A DNA stretch of 52,599 nt, taken from the NCBI GenBank assembly GCA_024637305.1, contig JAGXFI010000127.1:1-52599 (forward strand), read 5' to 3'. Source of the DNA: Sulfitobacter sp. (GTDB taxonomy: Bacteria > Pseudomonadota > Alphaproteobacteria > Rhodobacterales > Rhodobacteraceae). The number at the start of each line of letters is the position of its first letter. Position 1 is the first letter of the stretch. Shown here piece by piece: positions 246 to 14,228 of this stretch. The notes beneath the pieces are model-generated. The model was not told where the DNA came from. It searched no databases and was given only the letters and a program-made list of their open reading frames with translations. Position numbers and translations under genes: made by a program.

Positions 246-248
246 GAT

Positions 249-1598
249 TTATTCTCCTGCTACGGTCGCGTGCGGGCCGGGTTCGATGACTTCGCGCTTT
301 CGAACGACGAGCAGCGAATAGATGAACAAGAGCGCGCCGATCACCACACAAGCACCCGCGCCAAAGCGCATGATATAGAAGATCGACAGACTGTCCTGAA
401 CTTCCATGTAGTAGTCTCCGATCACACGTTGCATGTGGGTCTGGATGGTCCCTGCAAAGGTCAGCACGAAGGTCATGAAAGCCATCCCACCAGTCATCAG
501 CCAGAAGCTCACCATGTTGAGCACCTGATTGTACGGCTGGCGCTGACGCAGCAATGGCATTGCATAGGTGAAGATCGCGAGGTTCAGGGCGACATAGGCT
601 CCGTAAAAGGCCAGGTGCCCATGTGCCGCTGTGATCTGAGTGCCGTGGCTGTAGAAGTTGACGCCGTGCAAAGTGTGCAAAAAGCCCCAGACGCCGGCAC
701 CGAAGAAGGCAACGGTGGACGACCCCAGCGACCACAGGAGTGCCGCCTTGTTGGGGTGGTTGCGCTTGCCCTTCCAGACCATGACGAAGGCAAAGGACAT
801 CATCAGGAAGAACGGGATCACCTCGAAGGTCGAGAAGATCGAGCCGATCCATTGCCAGTACCCCGGCAGGCCGATCCAGTAGAAATGGTGCCCAGTGCCG
901 AGGATGCCCGAGAAAAGCGCAGTGGCGACGATGACATAGAGCCATTTTTCCACGACTTCGCGGTCAACACCGGTGAGCTTCAGGAGCAGGAAGGCAAGGA
1001 TCGCGGCCATCACCAGCTCCCAGGTCGCTTCGACCCAGAGGTGAACGACGAACCACCAGTACATCTTGTCCAGCGACAGGTTGTCGGGGTTGATGAAGGC
1101 AAAGATCCAGAGCAGCGAAAGCAGCCACAGCCCCATCAGCAGCACGTTGGTGATCGCGGTTTTCTTGCCCGCAAGAACCGTCATCGAGATATTGAACAGG
1201 AAGATGAGCGCGGCGACGAGGATGCCGATCTTGACCCAAAGGGGTTGTTCAAGAAATTCGCGCCCGCCGTGAATGCCGACAAGGTAGCTACCCACGGCAC
1301 CCAGCGTGCCGACAACCAGGATGATGAGTTGCAGATAGGCCAGCTTGACCGAATAGAGTTCACGCTCGGACTCTTCCGGGACCAGAAAAAATGCGGCCCC
1401 GAAAAAACCGAGCAGCAACCAGACGATCAACGCGTTGGTATGGATCATGCGGATGACGCTGAACGGCACCAGTTCCGACAGGAAGTTGGGCGAAATATAG
1501 ACCCATCCGGCCAGAAGTCCGCCAAGGACCTGAATGCCGAATAGCGCCATCGCGCAGACGAAATAGGCATATGCCACTTTTTGAGATTGGTATTTCAT
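249..1598 (-). CDS. norB: Nitric oxide reductase large subunit NorB
   Basis: 449 residues, the usual length for the catalytic subunit of cytochrome c-dependent NO reductase (cNOR). The protein is very hydrophobic with about 12 membrane segments. Conserved haem-copper-oxidase-type histidines are visible in HTNALIVWLLLGFF, VVHLWVEATWELVMAA, GTGHHFYWIG and AAHGHLAFYGAY, and supply ligands for haem b, haem b3 and the non-haem iron FeB. It reduces two NO to N2O using electrons from NorC at the outer face of the inner membrane. It lies 12 bp after norC and 3 bp before norQ, clearly one operon. The start ATG at 1598 follows a GGAGGAAT ribosome site. It lacks the N-terminal extension of quinol-fed qNOR, which agrees with the presence of norC. 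Confidence 0.97.
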   Translation of the reverse strand: MKYQSQKVAYAYFVCAMALFGIQVLGGLLAGWVYISPNFLSELVPFSVIRMIHTNALIVWLLLGFFGAAFFLVPEESERELYSVKLAYLQLIILVVGTLGAVGSYLVGIHGGREFLEQPLWVKIGILVAALIFLFNISMTVLAGKKTAITNVLLMGLWLLSLLWIFAFINPDNLSLDKMYWWFVVHLWVEATWELVMAAILAFLLLKLTGVDREVVEKWLYVIVATALFSGILGTGHHFYWIGLPGYWQWIGSIFSTFEVIPFFLMMSFAFVMVWKGKRNHPNKAALLWSLGSSTVAFFGAGVWGFLHTLHGVNFYSHGTQITAAHGHLAFYGAYVALNLAIFTYAMPLLRQRQPYNQVLNMVSFWLMTGGMAFMTFVLTFAGTIQTHMQRVIGDYYMEVQDSLSIFYIMRFGAGACVVIGALLFIYSLLVVRKREVIEPGPHATVAGE

Positions 1599-1610
1599 TG
1601 GTATTCCTCC

Positions 1611-2063
1611 TCAACCCGCGTCATTGGGCGGCCAGCCCTGCGTGTCGGTTTGATCGGCCCACCGCAAAAATTCCGCGAGTGCGCGGATTTCTTCTTCGGT
1701 GAGGTTGAAGTTCGGCATCTGGCGACGGCCTTCGATTCCGCTGGGCTGGGCTTCCATCCACCCTTGCAGGATTTCGAAAGCGGCCTCCGGGTCGTCCAGC
1801 ACACCCCATCGGGTCATGACGTTACCGACCTCGGGAGCGAAATAGGCACCTTCGCCATGCAAGGTGTGGCAGTTGATGCACGAATTGCGTTCCCAGACAT
1901 GTTTGCCCATCCTAACCTCTTTGGTCAGGGGCATGCCCGCTGTGGATTTCTCGACCACATATTTGTGGCTGTGGGCGGTCAGCCCGATAAAGACGACTAC
2001 GAAGAAGATCGAGCCTCCGTAGAATACGTTGCGCGCCCGCGATTTTGTAAGGAATTCAGCCAT
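1611..2063 (-). CDS. norC: Nitric oxide reductase cytochrome c subunit NorC
   Basis: 150 residues with one N-terminal membrane anchor (about residues 13-30) and a periplasmic monohaem cytochrome c domain. The haem site is CINCH (Cys62, Cys65, His66), followed by TLHGEGAYFAPE, a typical NorC sequence; a Met in RRQMPNFNL (about residue 117) is the likely distal haem ligand. NorC passes electrons from soluble carriers such as pseudoazurin or cytochrome c to NorB. It is the first gene of norCBQ. A palindromic NnrR-type box lies 61 bp upstream and a TACTAC -10-like element (minus strand, 2095-2100) lies 33 bp centre to centre from it, the spacing expected for an Fnr-family class II activator. Confidence 0.96.
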   Translation of the reverse strand: MAEFLTKSRARNVFYGGSIFFVVVFIGLTAHSHKYVVEKSTAGMPLTKEVRMGKHVWERNSCINCHTLHGEGAYFAPEVGNVMTRWGVLDDPEAAFEILQGWMEAQPSGIEGRRQMPNFNLTEEEIRALAEFLRWADQTDTQGWPPNDAG

Positions 2064-2123
2064 GTTTGGGCCTCCGTTCGGCGATTCATGTGCCGGTAGT
2101 AGCCCGCCGGTCGCGCAACAAGT

Positions 2124-2137
2124 TTGCGCCAGCGCAA
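2124..2137. promoter_or_regulatory. NnrR/Dnr-type operator between norC and the DUF1858 gene
   Basis: The sequence TTGCGCCAGCGCAA is a perfect palindrome, TTGCG-N4-CGCAA. It is close to the TTGCG-N4-CACAA motif known for NnrR in Rhodobacter sphaeroides. On the minus strand TACTAC at 2095-2100 is centred 33 bp away, and on the plus strand TAATTT at 2159-2164 is centred 31 bp away. Both fit a site centred near -41.5, so one box could activate norCBQ and the divergent small gene. Binding is inferred. Confidence 0.7.
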
Positions 2138-2201
2138 CGTCGAATGCATTTGAGCAAGTAATTTGAGCCGGTAGATAATGTACCAGTCAACGAGGTGCCT
2201 C

Positions 2202-2408
2202 ATGACGCGAATGCGACTCGAAAACCCTGATTTGCCGCTGGACGATCTGATGGCCAGCTGGCCGCAGACGATTCCGGTTTTCATGCGTCACAAGATGCTT
2301 TGCGTGGGATGTCTGGTGAATCCGTTTCATACGGTTAAGGACGCCTGCGCGGAATACGGGCTGGACGAAACCGCGTTTTACGCGGAACTCCGCCTTGCGA
2401 TCACGTAG
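2202..2408 (+). CDS. Small DUF1858 (disulfide-domain) protein
   Basis: 68 residues from the ATG at 2202, which has GAGGTG eight bases upstream. An in-frame ATG at 2178 overlaps a likely -10 (GATAAT, 2174-2179) and is less credible. The protein matches DUF1858, the small alpha-helical domain found next to hybrid cluster proteins and as a redox-disulfide module: LDDLMASWPQTIPVFMRHKM, then a CVGC motif and HTVKDACAEYGLD. The two cysteines could form a redox disulfide or bind iron-sulfur or iron. The last 8 bp overlap the convergent nnrR gene. Its position between norC and nnrR, sharing the NnrR box at 2124-2137, suggests a role under nitric oxide or low oxygen. No precise function is established. 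Confidence 0.85.
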   Translation: MTRMRLENPDLPLDDLMASWPQTIPVFMRHKMLCVGCLVNPFHTVKDACAEYGLDETAFYAELRLAIT

Positions 2409-3120
2409 CCTTCGGCCCCGTCAACAGCACCAGCTGATGGGGTTCGAGTACGGTGATGCGTTTCCGGCCACTTTCGACCAGACCCTGTTTTTCCCACGCG
2501 CTGAGCATGCGGCTGACGGTATGCAGCGTTGTTCCCGTCATTTCCGACAGATCCTGACGGGTAATGGGAAAATCGATCTCTATCCCCTTGGCGACCTTGC
2601 GACCCGTCTGGTTGATCAGTCGCAACAACGCATTCGCGATCCGTTGCTCGACCTGCTGGGTTGCCATCTCGACGATACGGGTATTCATCTCGCCGATACG
2701 CGTTCCGACGGTCTTGTAGGTCTCGGTGGCAAAGCCGTCATACTTCGCCACGAATTCCGGCCACAGCCGTCCGGGCCAGGACAACGCGATGGATTCTGCC
2801 GCCGTGATGGCCGTTGCAGGGTAGGTGTCCCGCCCGAGCGCCTGTGCGATGCCGAACAACTGGCCGCTGGGGATGTGCAGCGCGATCACCTGTTCACCTT
2901 CGGGCGTGATGCGCACCACACGGATATACCCGTCAAGCAGCATGTAAAAACGATCCGCCGGCGCGCCTTCCTCGAAAACGGTTGTTCCGGACTCAAATCG
3001 CCGCGGGCTCGCCTGATCGAGAATCTCGCGAATCTGTGGGCCGTCCAGCCTTGAAAAAGGCGGCACATGGCTCAACAGGCTTTCATCCAGCCGGGTTTGC
3101 GGGCGTTTTGCGTGTCTCAT
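2401..3120 (-). CDS. nnrR: Crp/Fnr-family NO-responsive regulator (NnrR/Dnr type)
   Basis: 239 residues: an N-terminal cyclic-nucleotide-binding-type beta barrel (about 15-135), a long dimerisation helix, and a C-terminal winged helix-turn-helix (about 170-230). The recognition region is TGTTLHTVSRMLSAWEKQG. The protein has no cysteine, so it cannot carry the Fnr [4Fe-4S] cluster; this is the NnrR/Dnr type, which senses NO, in Dnr through haem. At the residue where Fnr has the DNA-reading Glu (E-x2-SR) there is His, which fits operators with TTGCG rather than TTGAT half-sites. It is convergent with the DUF1858 gene and divergent from pseudoazurin-nirK. It is the obvious candidate to control the nor and nir units here. 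Confidence 0.9.
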   Translation of the reverse strand: MRHAKRPQTRLDESLLSHVPPFSRLDGPQIREILDQASPRRFESGTTVFEEGAPADRFYMLLDGYIRVVRITPEGEQVIALHIPSGQLFGIAQALGRDTYPATAITAAESIALSWPGRLWPEFVAKYDGFATETYKTVGTRIGEMNTRIVEMATQQVEQRIANALLRLINQTGRKVAKGIEIDFPITRQDLSEMTGTTLHTVSRMLSAWEKQGLVESGRKRITVLEPHQLVLLTGPKAT

Positions 3121-3161
3121 AGTCGCTTAATTTCACAATTCTTGCGCGGGAGCCACGTGAA

Positions 3162-3175
3162 TTGATCCAGATCAA
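3162..3175. promoter_or_regulatory. Fnr-consensus box between nnrR and pseudoazurin
   Basis: TTGATCCAGATCAA is an exact TTGAT-N4-ATCAA Fnr/FnrL consensus palindrome. It lies 42 bp upstream of the nnrR start and 33 bp (about three helical turns) centre to centre upstream of the second box at 3195-3208. It could let an oxygen-sensing FnrL act on nnrR, on pseudoazurin-nirK, or on both. No clear -10 stands at -41.5 spacing on either strand, so class I activation of the rightward promoter, or control of nnrR, are both open. Confidence 0.7.
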
Positions 3176-3194
3176 CAAAACCGGCTCGTTTCTA

Positions 3195-3236
3195 TTGCGC
3201 CAGGACAAAGATCAGACATGCGACGGGAGATATCTA
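3195..3236 (+). promoter_or_regulatory. NnrR-like box and -10 element of the pseudoazurin-nirK promoter
   Basis: TTGCGCCAGGACAA (3195-3208) matches TTGCG-N4-CACAA with one mismatch and has the same CCAG spacer as the other two boxes. A -10-like TATCTA at 3231-3236 is centred exactly 32 bp from the box centre, the class II spacing of Fnr-family activators. Transcription would then begin near 3243, which excludes the upstream ATG at 3218 as the pseudoazurin start and supports the one at 3266. Confidence 0.6.
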
Positions 3237-3265
3237 TCCATCAAACGAACATGAAAGGAAAAAAA

Positions 3266-3697
3266 ATGTTTCGTATGATCGCCTCCGGCCTCGCGCTTAG
3301 CGCCATTTTGAGCAGCCCGGTATTGGCTGAAACCTTCGAAGTAAAGATGCTCAACAAGGGCGAGGAAGGCACGATGGTCTTTGAGCCTTCGTTCGTTCGC
3401 ATCGCACCAGGCGACACGGTGGTTTTCGTCCCGACGGACAAGAGCCACAACGCCGAAAGCATCAAAGGCATGATGCCTGAGGGCGCTGAAGGGTTCACCG
3501 GCAAGATGAACAAGGAAGTCGAAGCCACGTTTGACGCCGAAGGTGTGTACGGCGTGATGTGCAAACCGCACTATGCAATGGGCATGGTGATGACGATCGC
3601 GGTCGGCGATGTCGATGCAGCACCTGAGGACTTCTTTGAGGGCCGTGTGCCCAAGAAGGCCAAAGAGCGCTTCGAAGCCCAGCTCGGCAATCTTTGA
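3266..3697 (+). CDS. paz: Pseudoazurin (periplasmic blue copper protein)
   Basis: 143 residues with a 21-residue signal peptide ending in SSPVLA, then ETFEVKML. The cupredoxin type 1 copper ligands are His61, Cys99, His102 and Met107 of the precursor (TDKSHNAES and [12 protein letters not shown]); after signal removal they become 40, 78, 81 and 86, the classical pseudoazurin numbering. It carries electrons from the bc1 complex to NirK, and possibly to NorC. The start at 3266 is chosen for the AAGGA ribosome site just upstream, the clean signal peptide and the promoter position; ATGs at 3218 and 3251 are in frame but less suitable. It lies directly upstream of nirK, its expected partner. Confidence 0.96.
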
Positions 3698-3720
3698 ACA
3701 AGACAACCACTCACGGCGAT

Positions 3721-3734
3721 GCCCGAAAACGGGC
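3721..3734 (+). other. Small GC hairpin between pseudoazurin and nirK
   Basis: GCCCG-AAAA-CGGGC forms a five-pair stem with an A4 loop, 23 bp after the pseudoazurin stop and 34 bp before the nirK start. There is no U tract, so it is not a good terminator. It could be an mRNA processing or stability element that sets different levels of the two proteins; this is inference only. Confidence 0.35.
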
Positions 3735-3768
3735 GCGCCTCTCAAACTCGAAAATGATGGAGGAAGAA

Positions 3769-4986
3769 ATGACAAAATTCATCAACCCAGGTCTTATGCA
3801 AACCAGCCGACGCAATGTCCTGCGCGGCTCCGTTCTGGCGGGCGCTGCGGCGCTGACCGGTGCAAGTGCGATGGCGGCTCCCCGCAGCCCCAAATTGCAC
3901 AAGGCGAACGCCACCTCTGCCAACCTCTATAAAGCGGCGGCAGAGCAAGCTGCGGAAAGCACAGCCGCTCCGGCAGATCTGACCGGCTATACCCGCGTCA
4001 GGCAGGAATTAGTGGCACCCCCGTTCGCACCGGAACACGAGCAGGTTGCGACCGGCGGCCCGAAGATCGTCGAGATCACCATGGACACCACCGAGCGTCT
4101 GATGGTCGTGGATGAAGACACCGGCGCGTCGATCTGGGCCTTGACCTTTAACGGCTCCGTTCCCGGTCCGCTGATCATCGTCCACGAAGGCGACATGGTC
4201 GAACTGACCCTGCGCAATCCGACCGACAGCATGATGGAGCACAACATCGACTTTCACGCGTCTACCGGCGCGCTGGGCGGTGGCGGCTTGACCCATATTT
4301 TTCCCGGCGAGGAAACAGTGCTGCGCTGGAAGGCGACCAAACCGGGCTGCTTTACCTATCACTGTGCCCCTGGTGGCGCGATGATCCCCTATCACGTCTG
4401 CCACGGCATGAACGGGGCGATCATGGTCCTGCCGCGCGACGGTCTGAAGGACAAGGACGGCAACCTGCTGAAATACGACACCATCGCCTATATAGGGGAA
4501 CAGGATTACTATCTGCCGAAAGATGAAAACGGCGATTACCGTTCTTACGCGGTGGCTGGCGAAGATTATACCGACAGCCTCGATGCAATGCGCACGCTCA
4601 CACCGACCCATTCGGTGTTCAACGGGGCCGTTGGTGCCTTGACCGGTGAAAATGCCCTGCGCAGCAAGGTGGGCGAGACTGTCCTGATGATCCACAACCA
4701 GGCCAACCGGGACACCCGTCCGCACCTGATCGGCGGCCATGGCGACTTTGTCTGGGAAGCATCGTTCAGCGAAGCACCGATGACCGGCATGGAGACATGG
4801 TTCGTCCGAGGCGGCAGCGCGGTAGCTGCGATGTATACCTTCGAGCAGCCCGGGGTTTACGCATATGTGAACCACAACCTGATCGAAGGCGCGATGCTCG
4901 GAGCAACCGCACATTTCGTTGTCGATGGCGAGTGGAACAATAACCTGATGGAGCAAGTCGTCGCACCACGTGCCTTCGCGACCTGA
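3769..4986 (+). CDS. nirK: Copper-containing nitrite reductase NirK
   Basis: 405 residues from the ATG at 3769 (AGGAAG five bases upstream); an upstream in-frame ATG at 3694 would overlap pseudoazurin. A twin-arginine signal is visible ([20 protein letters not shown]), so the folded protein is exported by Tat. Two cupredoxin domains follow. Ligands seen: HNIDFH (His158 for type 1 Cu, His163 for type 2), [12 protein letters not shown] (His198 type 2; Cys199 and His209 type 1), Met214, and a late type 2 His in HLIGGHGDF. The enzyme reduces nitrite to NO in the periplasm. The extra residue in the Cys-His loop and the long N-terminus resemble Rhodobacter-type NirK. It is the second gene of a paz-nirK-nirV unit. 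Confidence 0.97.
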
Positions 4987-5002
4987 TACGGAGAAAAAGA
5001 CC

Positions 5003-5752
5003 ATGACCACCACCGAAATCCATTCAACGACACCCCGCAACACTTTGCGCTGGGTGGGGTTGGCCGGGTCGGTGGCGGTCCTTTTCGGGGCCGCGTTCTT
5101 TCTGCGCGGCCCCGATCTGTTGTCACCGCCCGCGATGGCCGAAGAGCCGGTCGTCATGCAGGACGGTGCGCCGGTTTACGTCCAGAAATACGAGGTCAGC
5201 GTCGCTGAGTGGAATGCCTGCCACCAAGCCGGCGGTTGCACGCTGGCATTGCGCGCGCCCAATGGAAAATCTGAACTTACCACTCCCGCGACCGGGCTTT
5301 CCTTCGTAGACGTGGGCGAATACCTGACCTGGATCAGCTATGCGACCGGGCATGATTTTCGTCTGCCGACGCTTGCCGAATGGGAATACATGGCCGCAGA
5401 GGTGCTGCCCAAAGCTCCCGATCCGATCTTCACCTCGTCCGAACTGACATGGGCCTCCGCCTATCTGCTCAAACCGCAAACCAAGCGCTCGTTGCGTCCG
5501 CAAGGGTCTTTCGCGACCACCTCGCAAGGGATCGTCGATCTGGATGGCAGCGTTTGGGAATGGACCAGCGAATGCTTTACGGGCGCTTCGGGGGGAGAGA
5601 TCGCGCCGGACCGTTGTCCGGCCTTCTTTGTCGGTGGCGAACATATCGCCGCGATGTCCTATCTTGAACGCGATCCTGCCCGGGGTGGATGCGCCGTCGG
5701 TTCCCCACCTGCACATCTGGGGATGAGACTGGTATCCGACCAAGCGTTCTGA
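5003..5752 (+). CDS. nirV: NirV: formylglycine-generating-enzyme-fold protein of the nitrite reductase locus
   Basis: 249 residues from the ATG at 5003, with a GGAG ribosome site and only 16 bp after nirK. One N-terminal membrane segment (LRWVGLAGSVAVLFGAAFF) is followed by an exported SUMF1/FGE-sulfatase domain with the typical sequences YEVSVAEWNACHQAG, GHDFRLPTLAEWEYMA and DLDGSVWEWTSECF. NirV proteins accompany nirK in many denitrifiers. Their molecular job is not settled, and nirV mutants in Rhodobacter are reported to keep nitrite reductase activity. A maturation or accessory role for NirK is plausible but unproven. Co-transcription with paz and nirK is likely. Confidence 0.9.
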   Translation: MTTTEIHSTTPRNTLRWVGLAGSVAVLFGAAFFLRGPDLLSPPAMAEEPVVMQDGAPVYVQKYEVSVAEWNACHQAGGCTLALRAPNGKSELTTPATGLSFVDVGEYLTWISYATGHDFRLPTLAEWEYMAAEVLPKAPDPIFTSSELTWASAYLLKPQTKRSLRPQGSFATTSQGIVDLDGSVWEWTSECFTGASGGEIAPDRCPAFFVGGEHIAAMSYLERDPARGGCAVGSPPAHLGMRLVSDQAF

Positions 5753-5978
5753 GCGCATTCCGGGGCTGCCGGCCTATGGCTGCGGTTCCCGATCAAGCCG
5801 GAAATTAAAGAGGCTTTGCAAATGCTTGCCGTTCCGTCCAAGATGTCGGTGCTGGATGCCCTGAAGCAGAGCCTGTCAGATGCGCCGTGATCGACGCTTG
5901 TTTGCGACGCCTCATGGCTTGACAACCAGCGATGCCTTGGGCCTTGTTCGGCCGAATTTGATTGCAGGGAGAATTGCC

Positions 5979-7094
5979 ATGATGAAAACCCGCGCCGCCG
6001 TTGCCGTTGCCGCCGGAAAACCGCTCGAAATTATGGAAGTGAACCTCGAAGGACCCAAGCGCGGCGAGGTGTTGGTCGAAATCAAGGCGACCGGTCTGTG
6101 CCATACGGATGAATTCACCCGGTCCGGCGATGACCCCGAGGGTATTTTCCCCGCAATTCTGGGTCACGAAGGAGCCGGGATCGTGCTGGAGGTGGGCGAG
6201 GGCGTTACGACGCTTGAGGTTGGCGATCATGTGATCCCGCTGTATACGCCCGAATGTCGCGAATGCGAATATTGCCTGTCGGGCAAGACGAACCTGTGCC
6301 AGAAGATCCGGATCACCCAAGGTCAGGGTCTATTGCCGGACGGAACCACCCGGTTCTCGATGCAGGACGGTACGCCAATCCATCATTACATGGGGTGCTC
6401 GACCTTTGCCAATCATACCGTGGTGCCCGAGATTGCATTGGCGAAGGTGCGCAAGGATGCGCCGTTCGACAAGATCTGTTATATCGGCTGTGGCGTGACC
6501 ACAGGGATCGGGGCGGTCATCAACACCGCCAAGGTAGAGATCGGCGCGCGCTGTGTGGTCTTTGGTTTGGGAGGTATCGGTCTGAACGTCATTCAGGGCC
6601 TGCGGCTTGCCGGGGCGGACCAGATCGTGGGCGTGGACCTCAACGACGACAAGGCGGAGATAGGCACGTATTTCGGCATGACCGATTTCGTGAACCCGAC
6701 GAAAGTGGACGGCGACATGGTCGCGCATCTGGTCGAGCTTACCAAAGGTGGCGCGGATTATACGTTTGACGCGACCGGAAATACCAAGGTCATGCGCACG
6801 GCACTGGAGGCCGCGCACAAGGGCTGGGGCGAGTCGATCATCATCGGTGTGGCCCCTGCAGGTGCCGAGATCAGCACGCGCCCCTTCCAGTTGGTCACCG
6901 GCCGCGTCTGGCGCGGGACGGCTTTTGGCGGGGCCAAGGGACGGACGGATGTGCCCAAAATCGTCGATTGGTACATGGACGGCAAGATTGAGATCGACCC
7001 GATGATCACTCATAAGCTGACGCTTGACCAGATCAACGAAGGGTTTGACCTCATGCACGCGGGCAAGTCCATTCGCGCCGTGGTGGAGTTCTGA
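5979..7094 (+). CDS. adhI/frmA: S-(hydroxymethyl)glutathione dehydrogenase / class III alcohol dehydrogenase (GSNO reductase)
   Basis: 371 residues, the normal length of class III zinc alcohol dehydrogenases. Catalytic zinc ligands: Cys in GLCHTDEF, His-Glu in LGHEGAGIV and Cys in [12 protein letters not shown]. The structural zinc site is [17 protein letters not shown]. The NAD-binding Rossmann motif is [20 protein letters not shown]. These enzymes oxidise the formaldehyde-glutathione adduct and reduce S-nitrosoglutathione. The ATG at 5979 is chosen because GGGAG lies seven bases upstream; the longer frame to 5880 has no support. It follows nirV by 226 bp and precedes a catabolic cassette by 10 bp, so it could serve NO detoxification, formaldehyde removal, or the downstream pathway. 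A TTGACA-like -35 at 5919-5924 hints at its own promoter. Confidence 0.93.
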
Positions 7095-7104
7095 AGGTTG
7101 GCGG

Positions 7105-7581
7105 ATGACTGACCGGATGCCCATGAAACTCACCGTCAACGGCACCGAACACGAGATCGACGTCGAAGACGACATGCCGCTTTTGTGGGTGTTGCGCGAT
7201 GTGCTGGGGATCACGGGGCCGAAATACGGCTGCGGAATAGCGGCGTGCGGGGCCTGCACCGTGCATATGGACGGGGTCGCCGTGCGGTCGTGTCAGGTCG
7301 CGGCTGCGGATGTGGACGGGAAGATCACCACGATCGAAGGTCTTGGCACGCCCGAGGCACCGCACCCTGTACAGGCCGCGTGGATCGACCATCAAGTCGC
7401 CCAGTGCGGGTATTGCCAGTCCGGTCAGATCATGCAGGCAGCGGCTTTTCTGGGTTTCAACCCGGACCCTACGGATGACCAGATTGATGCGGCGATGGGG
7501 GGTAACCTCTGCCGCTGCGGGACTTATCCGCGTATCCGCGAAGCGCTCAAGTCCGCTGCGGCCAAGCTGGGCGCAGGGTAA
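7105..7581 (+). CDS. Molybdenum hydroxylase [2Fe-2S] small subunit (IorA/CoxS type)
   Basis: 158 residues. The N-terminal plant-ferredoxin-type cluster uses Cys43, Cys48, Cys51 and Cys63 ([13 protein letters not shown] ... RSCQ); the C-terminal helical domain carries the second cluster through QCGYCQSGQ and GNLCRCGTY. This is the electron-transfer subunit of two-component xanthine-dehydrogenase-family enzymes such as isoquinoline 1-oxidoreductase or aldehyde oxidases that pass electrons to a c-type cytochrome. There is no FAD subunit nearby. Its large partner is probably the gene at 10632-12872, three genes downstream, an unusual split. The start at 7105 has GAAGG upstream; ATG 7123 is an alternative. 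The 10 bp gap to the dehydrogenase suggests co-transcription. Confidence 0.9.
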
Positions 7582-7641
7582 CGCTGCGCTCGCGCGCGAA
7601 ATGACTTGACCGGCCCATACGTTAGCGACTGTTGTGGGAAC

Positions 7642-8682
7642 ATGAAACTTCTGGATACTCCCCGACCGCGAACACTCACGGGCTTGGACAGCATTCCGTT
7701 TCCGAGCGACGAAGCGGCCCGCGCGCAAGCGCTTGTGGCGCGCTGTCCGGTCGCTGGCGAAACCCCTCTGCAAAGCGCGCCCGCCATCGCCACGGAGGCA
7801 GCGGTGACCAGTGTGTGGCTCAAGGATGAGCGTGGGCGTATGGGGCTTGGCAGCTTCAAGGCGTTGGGTGCCGCCTATGTCATTGCCACTGCGGCACAGT
7901 CACAGGACGTCACCGGACAAACCTATGTCACGGCCAGCGCGGGCAATCACGGCATGTCCGTTGCAGCCGGTGCGGCGGCTTTCGGTGCTGCGTCGGTCGT
8001 CTATATCGCGCAGACCGTGCCCGACAGCTTTGCCGCGCGGTTGCAAGAACAGGGCGCGCGCGTCGTCCGCGAAGGGGCGACCTACGAAGACAGCATGAAA
8101 GCCGCCGAAGCCGCCGCCAAAGCGAACGGCTGGCAGCTTTTGTCCGACAGCTCCTGGCCCGGCTACACGGAAATCCCTCATTGCCTGATGGAAGGGTATC
8201 TGGTGCTGATGGCAGAGGCGATTTCGCAGGTATCCTCGCCCCCTACGCATATGTTCCTTCAGGCCGGTGTCGGCGGTCTGGCCTGTGCCTGCGCCGTGCT
8301 GGCGCGCAAGGCTTGGGGGTCCGCGCCGTGCATCATCGTGGTCGAGCCGGAGGCGGCTCCTGCGCTCTACGGTTCCATCGTCGCGGGCGAGGCACGCGAA
8401 ATGCCCGGACCGGTGTCGGAAATGGGCCGGTTGGATTGCAAGATGCCGTCGCTGATCGCGCTAAAGGGATTGGAGCGTGATGCGGATTTCTTTGCCACGA
8501 TCAGCGAAGACGAGGGACAGGCGGGGGCAGGGCTTGCGATGGTGGCAGGGTTTGCATCCTCCCCATCCGGAGCGGCAGGCATTTCCGGACTGATCGCCCT
8601 TGACGCGGAACAGCGTGCCAGTGTGGGTCTGGATGCGCAATCGCGGGTGCTTTGCATCCTCAGTGAAGGTCCCGCCACATGA
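7642..8682 (+). CDS. PLP-dependent ammonia-lyase-like enzyme (diaminopropionate ammonia-lyase / threonine dehydratase fold)
   Basis: 346 residues of fold type II PLP enzyme. The cofactor lysine is Lys73 in RMGLGSFKALGAAYV, and the phosphate/substrate loop is ASAGNHGMSVAAGAAAFG. The GLGSFKALGA sequence is closer to 2,3-diaminopropionate ammonia-lyase-like proteins than to biosynthetic threonine dehydratase; no ACT domain is present. Such enzymes eliminate ammonia from amino acids bearing a beta leaving group. The start at 7642 has a GGGA site close upstream. It overlaps the next gene by four bases (ATGA) and lies 60 bp after the iron-sulfur subunit. In ectoine-utilisation operons an EutB dehydratase-like enzyme occurs with EutA and an M24 hydrolase, as here, but the substrate of this set is unknown. 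Confidence 0.82.
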   Translation: MKLLDTPRPRTLTGLDSIPFPSDEAARAQALVARCPVAGETPLQSAPAIATEAAVTSVWLKDERGRMGLGSFKALGAAYVIATAAQSQDVTGQTYVTASAGNHGMSVAAGAAAFGAASVVYIAQTVPDSFAARLQEQGARVVREGATYEDSMKAAEAAAKANGWQLLSDSSWPGYTEIPHCLMEGYLVLMAEAISQVSSPPTHMFLQAGVGGLACACAVLARKAWGSAPCIIVVEPEAAPALYGSIVAGEAREMPGPVSEMGRLDCKMPSLIALKGLERDADFFATISEDEGQAGAGLAMVAGFASSPSGAAGISGLIALDAEQRASVGLDAQSRVLCILSEGPAT

Positions 8683-9824
8683 CACGCGGTTTTCCGGTGG
8701 CAGAATTCAAGTCCCGTACGGCACGCGCTCAAGCCCTGATGGCAAAGCACGACCTTGCGGCGCTGTTGCTGACCACGGAACCGGACGTGCGGTATTTCAC
8801 CGGTTTCCTGACACGTTTCTGGGAAAGCCCGACGCGACCTTGGTTCGTGATCTTGCCCGCCACCGGAAAGCCGGTCGCCGTGATCCCGTCCATCGGTGCG
8901 GCACTGATGGCCCAGACATGGGTCGAAGATATCCGGTGCTGGCGCGCGCCGGATCTGAAGGATGATGGCGTCAGCCTGCTGCGCGATGCGCTGAACGAGA
9001 TCGCGGGCGGGGGCCGGATCGGGGTGCCGTCCGGTCTGGAAAGCCACCTGCGAATGCCGCTGGCCGATTGGGCGCGCGTCCAGGACGGGGTGCACGCGAC
9101 AGTCGGCGACGATGCAGGCATCATGCAGCGTCTGCGCGCGGTAAAATCGCCCGCTGAGATCGCAAAGATCGAAAAAGCCTGCGCCATCGCCGGACGCGCC
9201 TTTGCCCGTGTGCAGGAAATTGCGCGCGAAGGTGTCCCGCTTTCACAGATATTTCGTGATTTTCAACGTCTCGGGCTGCAGGAGGGTGCGGATTGGGTGC
9301 CCTATCTTGCCGGGGCCGCAGCGCAGGGGGGATACGCGGATGTCATTTCACCGGCGAGCGATGCGCCGCTTGACAGGGGCGATGTGCTGATGCTGGACAC
9401 CGGCATGGTCTGGGACGGCTATTTCTGCGATTTCGACCGCAATTATTCGGTCGGCGCGCCTGCCGACGCCATTGCATCCGCCCATGCGCGCCTCATCGAT
9501 GCGGTGGATGCCGCCGCGGCTATTGCACGTCCGGGAACCACAGCAGCAGACTTGTTTCACGCCATGGATGCCATCGTCACGGAAGGCGCGGGCGGGTCGG
9601 ATGCAGGTCGGTTGGGCCATGCGTTGGGAATGCAGTTGACCGAAGGTTTATCGCTGATCCCTGAAGACCACACACCCTTGACCGAAGGCATGGTTCTTAC
9701 GCTGGAGCCAGGGATAGAGACGGCTCGTGGGAAGATATTGGTCCATGAGGAAGACATCGTCATCACCGCAACCGGCTGTCGATTTCTGTCACCGCGCGCC
9801 GATCGCGACATGGTGCAACTTTGA
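8679..9824 (+). CDS. M24-family metallohydrolase (Xaa-Pro peptidase / ectoine hydrolase-like)
   Basis: 381 residues in two parts: an N-terminal creatinase-type domain (about 1-145) and a C-terminal pita-bread domain. The five metal ligands are in place: Asp240 (MLDTG), Asp251 (CDFDRNY), His314 (GRLGHALGMQ), Glu343 (LEPGI) and Glu357 or Glu358 (LVHEEDIVI). The family covers Xaa-Pro aminopeptidase, creatinase and DoeA/EutD ectoine hydrolase, which open peptide, amidine or cyclic bonds. The gene context (ammonia-lyase before, EutA-like after, both joined by four-base overlaps) favours a small-molecule hydrolase of the DoeA kind over a peptidase. No neighbouring DoeB/EutE deacetylase or ectoine transporter is present, so ectoine itself is not proven as substrate. 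Confidence 0.85.
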   Translation: MTRGFPVAEFKSRTARAQALMAKHDLAALLLTTEPDVRYFTGFLTRFWESPTRPWFVILPATGKPVAVIPSIGAALMAQTWVEDIRCWRAPDLKDDGVSLLRDALNEIAGGGRIGVPSGLESHLRMPLADWARVQDGVHATVGDDAGIMQRLRAVKSPAEIAKIEKACAIAGRAFARVQEIAREGVPLSQIFRDFQRLGLQEGADWVPYLAGAAAQGGYADVISPASDAPLDRGDVLMLDTGMVWDGYFCDFDRNYSVGAPADAIASAHARLIDAVDAAAAIARPGTTAADLFHAMDAIVTEGAGGSDAGRLGHALGMQLTEGLSLIPEDHTPLTEGMVLTLEPGIETARGKILVHEEDIVITATGCRFLSPRADRDMVQL

Positions 9825-10558
9825 CCGACTATCCCTATACCCGCGCGGCTGAAGGGCCACGGGCGCTGGGTCTCATCGTCCTTCAGGCGGATGAAACCAT
9901 TGAAAGCGAATTTCGCCGTATGATCTCCGCTCAACAGCCGCTTTATGTCAGCCGAGTGCCAAGCGGAGCAGAGGTCACACCGGATACCCTGAACGAGATG
10001 TCGCACCACCTGACACGCGCCGCCAAATTGTTTCCGCGTCCTGTGCACTTTGCGTCCCTCGGCTATGGCTGCACATCTGCGAGCGCGCAGATCGGCGCGG
10101 CGCGCATCGCGGACCTGATCCGCCTTGGCACGGCGGCGGATCAGGTCACCGACCCGCTCACGGCCCTTATCGCCGCCTGCCGCGCGCTCGCGGTGACGCG
10201 GCTGGCGCTTTTGTCACCCTATACTGCCAACGTCTCTGACAGGTTGCGCGATGTCCTTTCGGGTGCAGGCATCGCCACCCCCGCCATGGGCAGCTTCAAC
10301 GAGGCGCGCGAGGAAAACGTCGTGCGCATCAGCCGCGCGTCGATCCGCGCTGCCGCGCTTGATCTGGCGGCGCAAGGCAACGTCGATGCGGTTTTCCTTT
10401 CCTGTACCAACCTGCGCACTCTTGACGTGATGGACGCGATCGAAACGGAAACATCACTGCCCTGTCTGTCAAGCAATCAGGTCATGGCGTGGCACATGAC
10501 ACATCCCGCCGGGATGGCCGCAAAAATTCCCGGAAAATTGGGGTTCATGCAGGGCTGA
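9821..10558 (+). CDS. EutA / maleate isomerase / Asp-Glu racemase-superfamily protein
   Basis: 245 residues, starting with TTG in a TTGA overlap with the M24 gene. Two cysteine motifs of the arylmalonate decarboxylase-maleate isomerase-EutA group are present: GYGCTSASAQIG (Cys84) and FLSCTNLRTLDV (Cys195). In this superfamily such cysteines act as acid-base or nucleophilic pair in racemisation, cis-trans isomerisation or decarboxylation without cofactor. EutA is a constant member of ectoine-utilisation operons although its reaction there is poorly defined. Here it follows the M24 hydrolase and the PLP enzyme, suggesting the three act on one substrate series. The start is set by overlap; no good ATG lies near it. 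Confidence 0.82.
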   Translation: MTDYPYTRAAEGPRALGLIVLQADETIESEFRRMISAQQPLYVSRVPSGAEVTPDTLNEMSHHLTRAAKLFPRPVHFASLGYGCTSASAQIGAARIADLIRLGTAADQVTDPLTALIAACRALAVTRLALLSPYTANVSDRLRDVLSGAGIATPAMGSFNEAREENVVRISRASIRAAALDLAAQGNVDAVFLSCTNLRTLDVMDAIETETSLPCLSSNQVMAWHMTHPAGMAAKIPGKLGFMQG

Positions 10559-10631
10559 TAAAGCGGTCTCCATTGCCAACCGGCGGGCGCTGGCCCAGAT
10601 GTACCCAAGCAGACGTGAAAAGGATCCTCTC

Positions 10632-12872
10632 ATGGGACGCGCCAGAACCATTGCCCGCCGCACATTTCTGATCGGATCAGCGGCGATCGCCGGTGGTGTC
10701 GCCTTTGGCGTCTATGCCGTCAGGACGCCACACGACAACCCGCTCAGGCAATCGCTCGCGCCGGGGGAGGCCACGTTCAACCCCTTCGTCAAGATTACCG
10801 GAGACGCGATCGTGCTGATCCTGCCGCATGCGGATGTGGGGCAGGGCGTGCAGTCTTTGCAAGCCGCCCTGATCGCAGAGGAGCTGGATGTCGATCCCGC
10901 GCACGTCACACTCAGCTTTGGTCAGCCCGACGCAGCCTATTACAACACTGCATTGGCCGCTGACCTGGCACCGTTCATGCCGTTTGATGACAGCCGCATG
11001 GCAAAGACTGTGCGCAGCGCGCTTGGGGGCGCGGCCAAGGTGATGGGCATCATGGCCACGGGCGGGTCCAGTTCGGTGCCCGACAGCTATGACAAGCTGC
11101 GCCATGCTGGTGCCGTCGCACGCGAAACGCTCAAACGTGCGGCCGCCGATCAGACAGGGCATGATGTGACCTCCCTGCGGACACAGGGCGGCGCGGTGAT
11201 TCTGCCTGACGGGGCGACGCTGCCCTATACTGCGCTTGCCGCGACCGCGGCGAGGGTGGAACCCGTGACGGAGGTGTCTCTGAGGGATCCGTCCGAATGG
11301 CGTCTTCTGGGCAAGCCCATGCAACGTACAGATATCATTTCAAAATCCACCGGCACGCAGACCTATGGGATCGACCTGAGGCTTGAGGGGATGGTTCACG
11401 CCGCCCTTTGTACCAATCCGCGACAGGGTGGGGCGATGCTGGGGTATGATGCGGGCGATGCCAAGAAGATGCGTGGCGTGATTGATGTCGTGCCTATTAC
11501 TGGCGGGGTCGCGGTCGTGGCCGACAATACCTGGCGGGCGTTTCAGGCGATTGAGGCGATCCGCTTTGACTGGGGACCGGCACCGTTCCCGGCTGAGATG
11601 CAAGGTCATTGGGACGCAGTCGCTGCCAGCTTCATCGAAGACAATCTCGACAAGACATGGCGCGACGAAGGCGATGTCGGCGCGGTGCTTGCCGCCGAAA
11701 CGCTTAGCGCGGAATACCGCAGCCCCTATGTCGCGCACCAGCCGCTTGAGCCGCTGAGTGCTGTCGTTCGCATATCCGATGGGGGAGCCGAGGTTTGGGC
11801 CGCGCACCAACTTCCGAGATTCCTGCAAGACAAGGTCGCGGCGGTTGCCGGATGCGCGCCGGAGGACGTGTTGTTCTACAACCAGTTTGCCGGCGGCAGC
11901 TTTGGTCACCGGCTGGAGTTCGATTTCATCACCCGTACCGCCGAGATCGCCGTGCAGATGAAGGGGACGCCGGTCAAGCTGACCTACCGCCGGGAGGAGG
12001 ATTTTATTCACGATTATCCGCGCCAGATTGGTATGGCGCGCGCGCAAGGCAAGGTGAAGGAAGGCAAGGTTGAGGCCTTTGCGCTGGATATCGCAACCCC
12101 TTCCGTGGCCGCATCGCAGGCCAGTCGTCTGGGCCAGCCAATCATGGGTCCGGACGGCCAGATCGTCGCCGGTGCATGGACCATGCCCTATGCGATCCCG
12201 CACCTGCGCGTGCGCGGATTCAGAACGCCCGAACTTGCGCCCGTCAGCTCCTGGCGCGCGGTCGGCGCACCTGTTGCGGGGTTCTTCGCCGAAAGCTGGC
12301 TGGACGAGCTGATCCACGCTGCTGGTGCCGATCCTCTTGCCGAGCGTTTGCGCCTTTGCACCAACCCCGTGCATATGAAGGTGCTGGAGGCTGTGGCCGA
12401 GATGTCGAACTGGGGGGGCAGCGCCATGTCCGCCGGGCAAGGGCGCGGGGTCGCTATGGTGGAATCCTTCGGCGTTCCCGTGGCAGAGGTCGTTGAAGTG
12501 ACCCAGACGCCGGAAGGCATTCGCATCGACAAGGTCTTTGTCGCGGCAGATGTGGGCCGCGTGCTGGACCCGGTCAATTTTGAAAACAACGTTCAGGGCG
12601 GGGTGATCTGGGGTCTTGGGCATGCGATAAATGCGGAGATTACCTTTAGCGACGGGGTCGCGGAGCAGGACAATTTCTATACCCATGAAGGTTTGCGCTT
12701 CCATCAGGCTCCGGAAATTACCGTGCGCGGATTGGAAAATGGCCCGTCGGTGCGCGGTATCGGGGAACCGCCAGTGCCGCCCGCCGCACCTGCGCTTGCC
12801 AATGCGATTTTCGCGGCGACTGGCCAACGGCTGCGCGAGATGCCGTTCAACAAGTTCATCGACTTCGCGTAA
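10632..12872 (+). CDS. Molybdopterin-binding large subunit of a xanthine dehydrogenase-family hydroxylase (IorB type)
   Basis: 746 residues from the ATG at 10632 with AGGA seven bases upstream. A twin-arginine signal begins the protein (ARRTFLIGSAAIAGG, residues 8 onward), so the assembled enzyme is probably exported by Tat and works in the periplasm. Molybdenum cofactor motifs include HADVGQGVQSLQ, FAGGSFGHRLEFD and WRAVGAPVAGF; the C-terminal GIGEPPVPPAAPA holds the catalytic glutamate that attacks at the molybdenum site. This is the IorB/aldehyde-oxidase branch without FAD domain. It pairs with the [2Fe-2S] subunit at 7105-7581. Substrate is unknown; N-heterocycles or aldehydes are usual for the family. 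It closes the cassette and is convergent with the GNAT gene. Confidence 0.9.
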   Translation: MGRARTIARRTFLIGSAAIAGGVAFGVYAVRTPHDNPLRQSLAPGEATFNPFVKITGDAIVLILPHADVGQGVQSLQAALIAEELDVDPAHVTLSFGQPDAAYYNTALAADLAPFMPFDDSRMAKTVRSALGGAAKVMGIMATGGSSSVPDSYDKLRHAGAVARETLKRAAADQTGHDVTSLRTQGGAVILPDGATLPYTALAATAARVEPVTEVSLRDPSEWRLLGKPMQRTDIISKSTGTQTYGIDLRLEGMVHAALCTNPRQGGAMLGYDAGDAKKMRGVIDVVPITGGVAVVADNTWRAFQAIEAIRFDWGPAPFPAEMQGHWDAVAASFIEDNLDKTWRDEGDVGAVLAAETLSAEYRSPYVAHQPLEPLSAVVRISDGGAEVWAAHQLPRFLQDKVAAVAGCAPEDVLFYNQFAGGSFGHRLEFDFITRTAEIAVQMKGTPVKLTYRREEDFIHDYPRQIGMARAQGKVKEGKVEAFALDIATPSVAASQASRLGQPIMGPDGQIVAGAWTMPYAIPHLRVRGFRTPELAPVSSWRAVGAPVAGFFAESWLDELIHAAGADPLAERLRLCTNPVHMKVLEAVAEMSNWGGSAMSAGQGRGVAMVESFGVPVAEVVEVTQTPEGIRIDKVFVAADVGRVLDPVNFENNVQGGVIWGLGHAINAEITFSDGVAEQDNFYTHEGLRFHQAPEITVRGLENGPSVRGIGEPPVPPAAPALANAIFAATGQRLREMPFNKFIDFA

Positions 12873-12932
12873 GGAGCGTAAAGAGCGTGAAAAAGCGATG
12901 TTGGCGACGCACCGCTTATCCCACGGCGTTCC

Positions 12933-13379
12933 TTACAGCTTGATATCGTATGTGACCCATTTCGTTTGCGCGGCCAGTCGGTCGTAAACCCCACGCGCGC
13001 GGTAGTTGTCGTCGGCGGTGATCCAGCGGATCACCGTCCAGCCGCGACGCCCGGCTTCATCCTTGAGCGCTTCGATCAACGCATCCGCAGCCCCCGTTCC
13101 GCGGGCGTCGGGATCGACGAAAAGATCATCCAGAAACCCGCCGGTCGCAGCCGCGAGCGGGCGCGCAAATTCTCGGTAATGTGCTAAACCGATAACCTTG
13201 CCGTCCGCATCTTCTGCGACAAAGCCGCAGGTTTGATGCGCTGGATCATGCAGCCACGACCACACGCGATCACGCATTTCCTGCGTTTGCGTCACCTTGT
13301 AGAAGATTGAATACCCTTCATAAAGTCTGTTCCAGGCATCCTTGTCGCCAGCGGCGACGGGGCGGACGGTAATTGTCAT
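12933..13379 (-). CDS. GNAT-family N-acetyltransferase
   Basis: 148 residues with the GNAT core: an N-terminal TITVRPVAAGDKDAWNRL strand-helix, central ADGKVIGLAHYRE, then the acetyl-CoA pyrophosphate loop LFVDPDARGTGAADALIEAL and a C-terminal ARGVYDRLAAQTKWVTYDI. It transfers an acetyl group from acetyl-CoA to an amine; the target is unknown. It lies 12 bp after the uronate-dehydrogenase-like gene and is probably the last gene of the five-gene minus-strand operon. It converges with the molybdenum hydroxylase gene across 60 bp that shows no convincing terminator. Confidence 0.85.
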   Translation of the reverse strand: MTITVRPVAAGDKDAWNRLYEGYSIFYKVTQTQEMRDRVWSWLHDPAHQTCGFVAEDADGKVIGLAHYREFARPLAAATGGFLDDLFVDPDARGTGAADALIEALKDEAGRRGWTVIRWITADDNYRARGVYDRLAAQTKWVTYDIKL

Positions 13380-13391
13380 GCTGCAACCCTT

Positions 13392-14228
13392 TCAGTCTTC
13401 CTTGCGGTCATCCACGATATTCATCTGCGACAACGCGCTTTGCCCAAGCGGGATCGACGCGAAGGGGCCGCCATGACACATCTGGCCCGCATCCTGCGGG
13501 TCTGCCGAGGGGGCTTCGGCCATGATCTTTTCCGCGAATTCCTCGGCATTGTCGCGCGGGCGATAACCGAGAAACGCGGCCTTGGTATTGTCGACCGGCA
13601 CGCGGTCATTGTTCGACACGCCGTAGATGATCGAGAACCCGACGATAGGCGTGTCGATTGCGCGGGTGACGAGCTGGATGAGATCGTCATAGCTTAGCCA
13701 CGATCCCAATGCGCGGGTGTTGGTGACCTGTGCGGCGCTCAGGATACGCAGATGCACGCTCTCCAATCCGCGCTTTTCCCAGTACATGCGGCCAAGGTCT
13801 TCGGTAAAGCACTTGGCGAGGCCATAGAATGTGTCCGGACGATGGGCGACGTCGGTGCCGATACGCTCGGTCTTGGGGTACATGCCGACTGCGTGGATCG
13901 ACGACGAATAAATCACCCGCTTGACACCGTGCTTATGCGCGGCCTCCCAAATGTTGTATGAACCTACAAAATTCGGGCCAAGCATTTCCTCGAACGGGAC
14001 TTCGTCCACGATGGCACCGAAATGCACGACCATATCCGCACCCTCCAGAAGCGGCGCGACATCGTCCATCTTGGCCAGGTCGGCTTGCGCCCAGCTCTCT
14101 CCGGGGTAGAGCTTTGCAGGGGCGTCCGCGATGTCAGTGCTAAGCAGTTCATCCGCCATTTTCGACAGGGGCTCACGCAGGTAAGAGCCAAGGCGCCCCG
14201 CGGCTCCGGTCAGTACGATCTTTTTCAT
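13392..14228 (-). CDS. udh: NAD-dependent epimerase/dehydratase-family protein, probable uronate dehydrogenase
   Basis: 278 residues of extended short-chain dehydrogenase fold. The NAD loop is TGAAGRLGSYL (residues 7-17), with an acidic TDIAD after strand 2 that favours NAD over NADP. The catalytic triad region is IYSSSIHAVGMYPKTERIG with Ser110 and then FYGLAKCF with Tyr135 and Lys139. The whole block from about 85 to 150 looks like bacterial uronate dehydrogenase, which oxidises galacturonate or glucuronate to the aldaro-lactone. The start at 14228 has GAGAGGAAA upstream; the longer frame is not needed. The C-terminal extra 20 residues are unusual. It follows the HpcH/GarL-type aldolase by 19 bp, and this pairing would suit hexuronate-aldarate breakdown, though a different sugar acid is possible. 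Confidence 0.78.
   Translation of the reverse strand: MKKIVLTGAAGRLGSYLREPLSKMADELLSTDIADAPAKLYPGESWAQADLAKMDDVAPLLEGADMVVHFGAIVDEVPFEEMLGPNFVGSYNIWEAAHKHGVKRVIYSSSIHAVGMYPKTERIGTDVAHRPDTFYGLAKCFTEDLGRMYWEKRGLESVHLRILSAAQVTNTRALGSWLSYDDLIQLVTRAIDTPIVGFSIIYGVSNNDRVPVDNTKAAFLGYRPRDNAEEFAEKIMAEAPSADPQDAGQMCHGGPFASIPLGQSALSQMNIVDDRKED

Follow-up and report, generated by a model that had tools for sequence, protein, structure and literature searches.

We analysed a 52,599-nucleotide stretch of a Sulfitobacter sp. genome (contig JAGXFI010000127.1, assembly GCA_024637305.1), hereafter called the window. Between positions 7105 and 12872 it carries the two subunit genes of an IorAB-type molybdenum hydroxylase, placed on either side of three genes for a pyridoxal 5'-phosphate (PLP)-dependent lyase, an M24-family hydrolase and an EutA-like enzyme. 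A sequence-only reading of this region had treated the five genes as one cassette, in which an N-heterocyclic or cyclic amidine compound is oxidized outside the cell and then opened and deaminated inside. The genes concerned, with the dehydrogenase gene that precedes them, are as follows.

5985..7094, + strand: gene for a class III alcohol/S-(hydroxymethyl)glutathione dehydrogenase (TIGR02818, 609.5 bits, cut-off 543.95); start uncertain, the longest open reading frame beginning at 5880
7105..7581, + strand: IorA-like 2Fe-2S small subunit of a molybdenum hydroxylase (Pfam Fer2 and Fer2_2)
7642..8682, + strand: fold-type II PLP beta-lyase of the diaminopropionate ammonia-lyase group, of the short 'KAD' subtype (Pfam PALP; NF006058, 254.5 bits)
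8679..9824, + strand: M24 hydrolase that keeps all five metal ligands and lacks two usual auxiliary histidines (Pfam Peptidase_M24 and Creatinase_N)
9821..10558, + strand: enzyme of the EutA-like/arylmalonate decarboxylase/maleate isomerase superfamily with a racemase-like cysteine pair (Pfam Amdase; TIGR02990, 128.7 bits)
10632..12872, + strand: IorB-like molybdopterin large subunit with a twin-arginine translocation (Tat)-type N-terminus (Pfam MoCoBD_1/2)

The layout described in the sequence-only reading was borne out: the five genes share a strand, both the lyase and M24 genes and the M24 and EutA-like genes overlap by exactly four bases, the triplet they form separates IorA from IorB, which are the two ends, and a Tat-like stretch, ARRTFLIG, was recognized by eye at the start of IorB. 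The run is longer than the five genes proposed, as the dehydrogenase gene ends on the same strand at 7094, ten bases before IorA. IorA is separated from the lyase gene by 60 bases and the EutA-like gene from IorB by 73, and the start codons are in place. Based on coding-score calls and sequence, the lyase gene most likely starts at ATG 7642 and IorB probably at 10632; the longest open reading frames begin at TTG 7606 and at 10599, respectively.

We compared the region with homologous loci drawn from the match lists of the M24, EutA-like, PALP and IorB proteins, so that the shares given below are not population frequencies. Out of 143 loci 114 were kept, 26 being dropped for lack of an M24 gene at ≥45% identity and three as repeats. 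The dropped loci include two in which IorAB is linked to the lyase (L037 and L076), the distant loci L225-L239, and L163, in which the M24 gene was lost by the gene caller. Genes were called from codon usage after training on the triplet genes, which makes starts and small genes approximate. Neighbours were counted within 6 kb, with 36 unlinked IorAB loci as controls.

The lyase gene is present in 92 of the 114 loci, the EutA-like gene in 100 and both in 86, as against 0/36 and 0/36 for the two genes in the controls. The conserved unit is thus the inner triplet of PLP lyase, M24 hydrolase and EutA-like enzyme, far beyond chance, which lends good support to the earlier idea that a hydrolase, a racemase and a PLP lyase act together. 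Among the 248 genomes of the family, EutA-like matches occur in 148 (E<=1e-10, distant ones counted) and PALP matches in 130 (E<=1e-35). M24 matches (E<=1e-45) were found in 48 of 337 genomes of the class and in 14 of 249 genomes drawn from the phylum, all of them in the class of the window, the number of the 249 that lie outside the class not being shown. The triplet is therefore present in many Rhodobacteraceae and sparse in other Alphaproteobacteria. None of the titles and abstract openings listed from the open-licence PMC literature, the only literature searched, was about this triplet, and the three genes look like a small, common and apparently undescribed pathway of marine bacteria. In a table of PMC4417242, two locus tags of Neorhizobium galegae that are close to each other are assigned to a diaminopropionate ammonia-lyase and to a hippurate hydrolase, with no pathway given there.

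The PLP enzyme had been proposed to be of the EutB type, which the model scores contradict: it reaches 62 and 43.1 bits with the EutB models NF005680 and TIGR02991, whose cut-offs are about 413. With the diaminopropionate ammonia-lyase model NF006058 it scores 254.5 bits, under the cut-off of 276, and the best model outside the diaminopropionate lyases gives 77.8 bits. Its predicted structure (predicted local distance difference test score of 90) has as its 13 best PDB chains the diaminopropionate ammonia-lyases of E. coli and Salmonella. On sequence grounds, the window lyase belongs to the diaminopropionate ammonia-lyase group, not to EutB. Aligned with YgeX, it keeps K77 and D189 and has an Ala in place of D120, residues whose numbering and roles we take to be those of the characterized enzyme. 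The same position is Ala in 34 of 36 aligned lyases, window included, and Asp in the other two. D120 of YgeX serves one of the two enantiomers. A lyase without it would need a racemase, which fits the near-universal presence of an EutA-like gene beside lyases of this kind. In the lyase tree, the enzymes with D120 (KDD) and without it (KAD) form two fully supported sides, with a long-branch warning from the program at that point. The 114 loci comprise 78 KAD, 12 KDD and two untyped lyases, with none within reach in 22, and the EutA-like gene accompanies 76 of the 78 KAD and 9 of the 12 KDD lyases (p 0.016, the loci not being phylogenetically independent).

The M24 protein harbours the metal ligands D240, D251, H314, E343 and E357, assigned by reference to prolidases and invariant across 17 aligned rows. 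An identity as DoeA, also put forward in the sequence-only reading, was rejected: the protein scores 60.5 bits with the DoeA/EutD model TIGR02993 (cut-off 613), and metal ligands kept here are replaced in a true DoeA. The DoeA of locus L209 (756.2 bits with the same model) has Glu, Pro, Tyr and Met at the first four ligand positions, the fifth column being ambiguous. Prolidases are the nearest relatives by sequence, and the predicted structure (score of 90 on the same scale) best matches PepE and prolidases in the PDB, with DoeA appearing from rank 13 at a similar TM-score and creatinase at rank 34. Like the prolidase and PepQ-PepE peptidases of the M24B group, the window protein combines a pita-bread fold with five metal ligands (D, D, H, E, E). 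Unlike them, it has YADVI and QLTE in place of the prolidase stretches SALPH and EVHE, and with these it lacks two histidines that prolidases usually have. These histidines are auxiliary catalytic residues.

The third protein of the triplet has the ectoine-utilization EutA model TIGR02990 as its best curated match, at 128.7 bits against a cut-off of 318, and is thus a superfamily relative of EutA. Its residues C84 and C195, invariant in 17 rows, correspond to both active-site cysteines of the Asp/Glu/hydantoin racemase superfamily. The nearest solved relative is arylmalonate decarboxylase, which in its wild-type form has one of the two cysteines. The ethanolamine EutA (PF06277) belongs to a different family, and a weak match to it was disregarded.

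Taken with the predicted models, these features are consistent, with moderate confidence, with the triplet encoding a hydrolase/racemase/beta-lyase route for a 2,3-diaminopropionate-type compound. From the observed gene content and order, families, active-site residues, distribution and trees, we infer the reactions, their order and the class of substrate as follows. The metal-dependent M24 enzyme would hydrolyse an N-acyl, peptide-like or cyclic amide or amidine derivative to a 2,3-diaminopropionate-type, i.e. beta-amino-substituted, amino acid; the two-cysteine EutA-like enzyme would invert its alpha carbon; and the PLP enzyme would eliminate the beta substituent to give ammonia and an oxo acid such as pyruvate. 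IorAB would be an exported molybdenum oxidoreductase in its own right, possibly with an aldehyde as its substrate, that became attached to the module in a lineage centred on Sulfitobacter.

A sister branch of the triplet points in the same direction, as its clusters often include an M20 deacetylase and an Lrp/AsnC regulator and its lyase is a full diaminopropionate ammonia-lyase. The KDD lyases form one group in the lyase tree, subject to the long-branch warning. The lyase of locus L060 passes NF006058 with 470.3 bits against the cut-off of 276, and the M20 deacetylase next to it is nearest to DoeB2, the N2-acetyl-diaminobutanoate deacetylase, at 324.8 bits (under the cut-off of 550). The order M20D, diaminopropionate ammonia-lyase, M24, EutA, with a divergent AsnC gene, recurs in L060, L219, L241 and L242. 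M20D genes are found in 5/12 KDD loci vs 2/78 KAD loci (p 3e-4, again for loci that are not phylogenetically independent), and AsnC-type regulators in 9 of the 114 loci.

Several observations weigh against the diaminopropionate route. The window lyase falls under the cut-off of its family and has no equivalent of D120, so its substrate may differ from diaminopropionate. The M24 protein reaches 90 bits with the PepQ/prolidase model, whose cut-off is 630; with the auxiliary histidines absent, this score low and DoeA folds nearly as close, amide hydrolysis is an activity that we infer for it. No deacetylase gene adjoins the window module, and the window genome contains four good M20D matches, of which the three compared are 40-43% identical to the L060 enzyme. 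Of the 22 loci with no lyase gene within 6 kb, eight also have no EutA-like gene there; some of these are contig ends or calling failures, and several look real (L061, L064 and L210). The distant M24 relatives, at 36-43% identity in 15 class-level loci (L225-L239), mostly occur without lyase and EutA-like genes. No single transporter is conserved with the triplet. Finally, the replacement of IorB within the linked slot, described below, suggests that IorAB may matter to the module and not be a bystander.

The route resembles two known systems without, by the tests made, belonging to either of them: its steps recall the last ones of the reductive uric acid pathway, and its layout that of hydroxyectoine utilization. 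According to the available text of PMC12507026, the E. coli M20 enzyme YgeY and the lyase YgeX release pyruvate from 3-ureido-2-aminopropionate in the former pathway, and YgeX acts equally on L and D enantiomers. The proposed triplet chemistry would be similar, in that a metallohydrolase cleaves a derivative to free 2,3-diaminopropionate, which a PLP lyase of fold type II then converts to pyruvate and ammonia. Both gene sets also include a molybdenum hydroxylase, XdhD in the urate cluster and the Tat-type IorAB in the window. In contrast with the urate system, the window has an M24 hydrolase in place of the M20 YgeY, and its lyase is shorter than YgeX and lacks D120. The urate cluster as listed in that source includes no EutA-like gene, and none of its SsnA, HyuA, YgfK and YgeW was recognized in the window cassette. 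A passage of PMC6754898 mentions YgeX only as one of the PALP proteins.

We also consider a broader version of the diaminopropionate route, improbable as a whole. It would make the two branches an undescribed alphaproteobacterial counterpart of the ectoine pathway, in which an Lrp-regulated M24 ring or amide hydrolase, an M20 deacetylase, a racemase and a diaminopropionate ammonia-lyase would process an N-acyl or cyclic diaminopropionate compound, such as a ring-contracted ectoine analogue. The Rhodobacteraceae triplet would then be a streamlined branch, fed in Sulfitobacter relatives by a periplasmic molybdenum oxidase whose large subunit can be exchanged.

What is new is the triplet, with its lean towards diaminopropionate, together with a hydroxylase that is split and exchangeable, rather than an established pathway of five genes. 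A trio of genes that is widespread in the Rhodobacteraceae, with its members probably annotated one by one as aminopeptidase, dehydratase and EutA, would become a testable catabolic module. If the proposed chemistry is true, it would point to an unrecognized marine diamino-acid nutrient or osmolyte, and would caution against reading EutA-like and M24 genes as a sign of ectoine use. This split hydroxylase, with its large subunit apparently exchanged at a conserved position, would be an uncommon example of how one subunit of a heteromeric molybdenum enzyme can be replaced.

The hydroxylase has the features of the IorAB type (isoquinoline 1-oxidoreductase; aldehyde dehydrogenase 8gy3), namely a 2Fe-2S small subunit with Fer2/Fer2_2 domains and a MoCoBD large subunit with a Tat signal, judged by eye. 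The best PDB sequence match of the window IorB is 8gy3_C, an aldehyde dehydrogenase large subunit (E 1.6e-48). Unlike such enzymes, its subunit genes are split around three others, and no homologue of their cytochrome partner was found in the window genome, in a search run without a positive control. In the other 44 IorAB loci fetched, the distant L224 pair included, IorA directly precedes IorB (tblastn alone showed this in three loci, where the gene caller had missed IorA), and the 36 unlinked loci among the fetched stretches contain no triplet gene.

IorB-like matches occur in 169 of the 248 family genomes (E<=1e-60). Among the matches listed, an IorB gene lies within 10 kb of the lyase gene in at least 4 of these genomes (counted by eye): those of the window, G212 (L077), G187 (L037, with no M24) and G055 (L076, with PALP only). 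G055, from the same genus as the window, has an M24 and an EutA-like gene (L050) about 0.85 Mb from L076, the EutA-like match being reported with one internal TAG. Linkage was also found in records of Sulfitobacter sp. HGT1, an uncultured Sulfitobacter, S. sabulilitoris and Pseudosulfitobacter koreensis. The claim of a five-gene cassette acting as one pathway thus fares poorly in general, as the five genes are rarely together, a result that the sequence-only reading had itself named as telling against it, and the two halves are common apart, and keeps some ground as a possible link in the Sulfitobacter-centred lineage. IorAB is normally its own pair and only loosely associated with the triplet, which it adjoins only in that lineage. 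The usual linked order is ADH3 ... IorA-IorB-(cytochrome c)-PALP-M24-EutA, in contrast with IorA-PALP-M24-EutA-IorB in the window. It is complete in L077, L116, L117, L129 and L160 (no cytochrome in the last), and L037 has all genes but M24. ADH3 precedes IorA in these six loci and in L076, and a cytochrome c-like gene lies beside IorAB in 14 clustered loci. The window is therefore a rearranged copy in which IorA and IorB are split around the triplet. In L076, the PALP gene stands beside IorAB-cytochrome and an MttB-family gene. Locus L224 (8750-12746), from a genome of another family, has an M24 gene (47% identity) upstream of IorA (55%) and of a distant IorB (33%), all on one strand, possibly a second, independent M24-IorAB link.

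The linked lyases fall into one 12-row tree group with a weak support of 88, which also contains four unlinked rows. Six of the linked IorA proteins, window included, cluster at 89/96 in a tree with few firm branches (4 starred of 38). A single clade of the six corresponding IorB proteins was rejected by the approximately unbiased test (p 5.6e-8; the group was named after the trees had been seen). The linked IorBs do not form one clade while the linked lyases group, which suggests that one IorB has taken the place of another, with the position and the IorA gene apparently retained. The firm discordance is that of L076 and L116 with the other linked loci; the IorBs of L037 and L160 lie outside the tested clade sets. 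Because a clade of window, L129, L077 and L117 was not rejected (p 0.665, the quick IorB tree having missed a better tree), the window IorB does not have to represent an exchange of its own. Exchange within the slot is a weak argument for a functional link between IorAB and the triplet.

Two explanations of this association have to be weighed. The first, plausible if a little short of probable and compatible with the diaminopropionate route of the triplet, concerns IorAB only: the pair would lie there by neutral synteny within a single lineage, and its order in the window would be due to a chance rearrangement or to faulty assembly. The linkage is indeed confined to Sulfitobacter-like genomes among those seen, and the window genome (G000) is a draft of 183 contigs, 91.9% complete. 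Nevertheless, the short spacings on both sides of the triplet, with start codons in place, and an IorB that was apparently exchanged in its slot and not lost are harder to reconcile with neutrality. The second explanation, which we find somewhat unlikely, is a single pathway in the Sulfitobacter-centred lineage, in which IorAB would oxidize a periplasmic compound, an aldehyde or an N-heterocycle, and the triplet would degrade the imported product. In addition to the different IorBs that appear to fill the same slot beside grouped lyases, the gene order shared by the five complete loci and partly by L037 and L076 favours such a pathway, as do the window rearrangement, which kept all five genes together, and the distant M24-IorA-IorB run of L224. 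It is opposed by the rarity of the linkage in the family as against the abundance of IorB-like genes, by the controls devoid of triplet genes, and by L032, L147, L149 and L152, near relatives of the linked modules that have no IorAB beside the triplet; the missing cytochrome partner, with the caveat given above, also speaks against it.

A relation of the triplet with ectoine use was also considered. Like the eutABCDE/doeAB genes as presented in the available parts of PMC5924519 and PMC13188858, the triplet encodes together an M24 hydrolase, an EutA-superfamily racemase and a PLP lyase, and its sister branch adds an AsnC regulator and a DoeB2-like deacetylase. Unlike in the ectoine system, the three window proteins score far under the EutD, EutA and EutB cut-offs, and the M24 protein has its metal site. 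The ectoine pathway proper was rejected on these cut-offs and on the active-site residues, in agreement with the sequence-only reading. No EutC, EutE or ectoine transporter is encoded in the cassette (the genome was not searched for EutC or a transporter), and DoeB/EutE (TIGR02994) had no match in the 91.9% complete window genome, in a search of unproven sensitivity since no control genome reached the cut-off.

The triplet might still be an accessory of (hydroxy)ectoine use that handles a side product or a stereoisomer, which we consider unlikely. DoeA lies within 6 kb in 4 of the 114 loci (L050, L053, L137 and L209), with DoeB in L209, and the window genome encodes, on another contig, a near-cut-off DoeA together with Pot-type ATP-binding cassette (ABC) transporter genes. 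A Pot-type ABC cluster (binding protein and permeases) is near the triplet in 11/114 loci vs 0/36 controls (its ATPase family alone, 20 vs 4), and EutA has been proposed, in the accessible text of PMC5924519, to serve the PLP enzyme EutB by inverting a stereocentre. On the other side, 110 of the 114 loci have neither DoeA nor DoeB within 6 kb, the lyase is not EutB, EutC is absent from the cassette, and the M24 enzyme has the metal site that DoeA lacks. A tie of the three inner genes to doeB/eutE, which would tell against the sequence-only reading, is thus usually not seen.

The contig with the DoeA gene (contig 104 of G000; locus L263, positions 1-14000) carries this gene (609.5 bits, cut-off 613), an ArgE-like M20 gene (by eye), a class III aminotransferase gene and two sets of Pot-type ABC genes, which may make it an ectoine-type cluster served by a different transporter. 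Ectoine-type chemistry may therefore exist in the window cell independently of the triplet. The Pot-type systems near the triplet M24 gene, in L131, L137, L140 and eight more loci, are candidates for substrate uptake. In L131 and L137, the triplet, the Pot transporter and a creatinase-like M24 gene share one strand, with an agmatinase-family gene in L131 and divergent ArgE-like and DoeA genes in L137.

It is highly doubtful that the M24 protein is instead an amidinohydrolase-type enzyme that releases urea, as creatinase does, from a guanidino or ureido amino acid and leaves the remaining amine to the lyase: urease accessory genes (named by eye) are near the triplet in 6/114 loci (L034, L129, L147, L149, L160 and L162) vs 0/36 controls, an agmatinase-family gene adjoins the Pot cluster of L131, L218 and L221 have ureohydrolase-like genes (by eye), creatinase is among the structural matches and albizziin is a urate-route intermediate in the available text of PMC12507026, but urease and ureohydrolase genes are missing from the surroundings of most loci, closely related lyases occur in three of the six urease cases (L147, L149 and L160), and prolidases, not creatinase, match best in both sequence and structure.

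A run of MeTr, MetF and a 98-aa protein, with ppx- and rlmE-like genes (named by eye), occurs in 6/114 loci vs 0/36 controls; a link with a corrinoid methyltransferase pathway was rejected, the run being read as conserved synteny of a few genera. The dnaA/dnaN neighbours of ten loci were likewise set aside as housekeeping synteny. In the window, a promoter and terminator scan of positions 5600-13100 yielded sites no more numerous than in shuffled sequences. Directly to the left of the dehydrogenase gene, positions 3-5752 harbour denitrification genes, named mostly by eye: norQ-, norB- and norC-like genes of nitric oxide reductase, those of an Nnr-type regulator and a pseudoazurin-like protein, nirK for a copper nitrite reductase, and a SUMF1/nirV-like gene.

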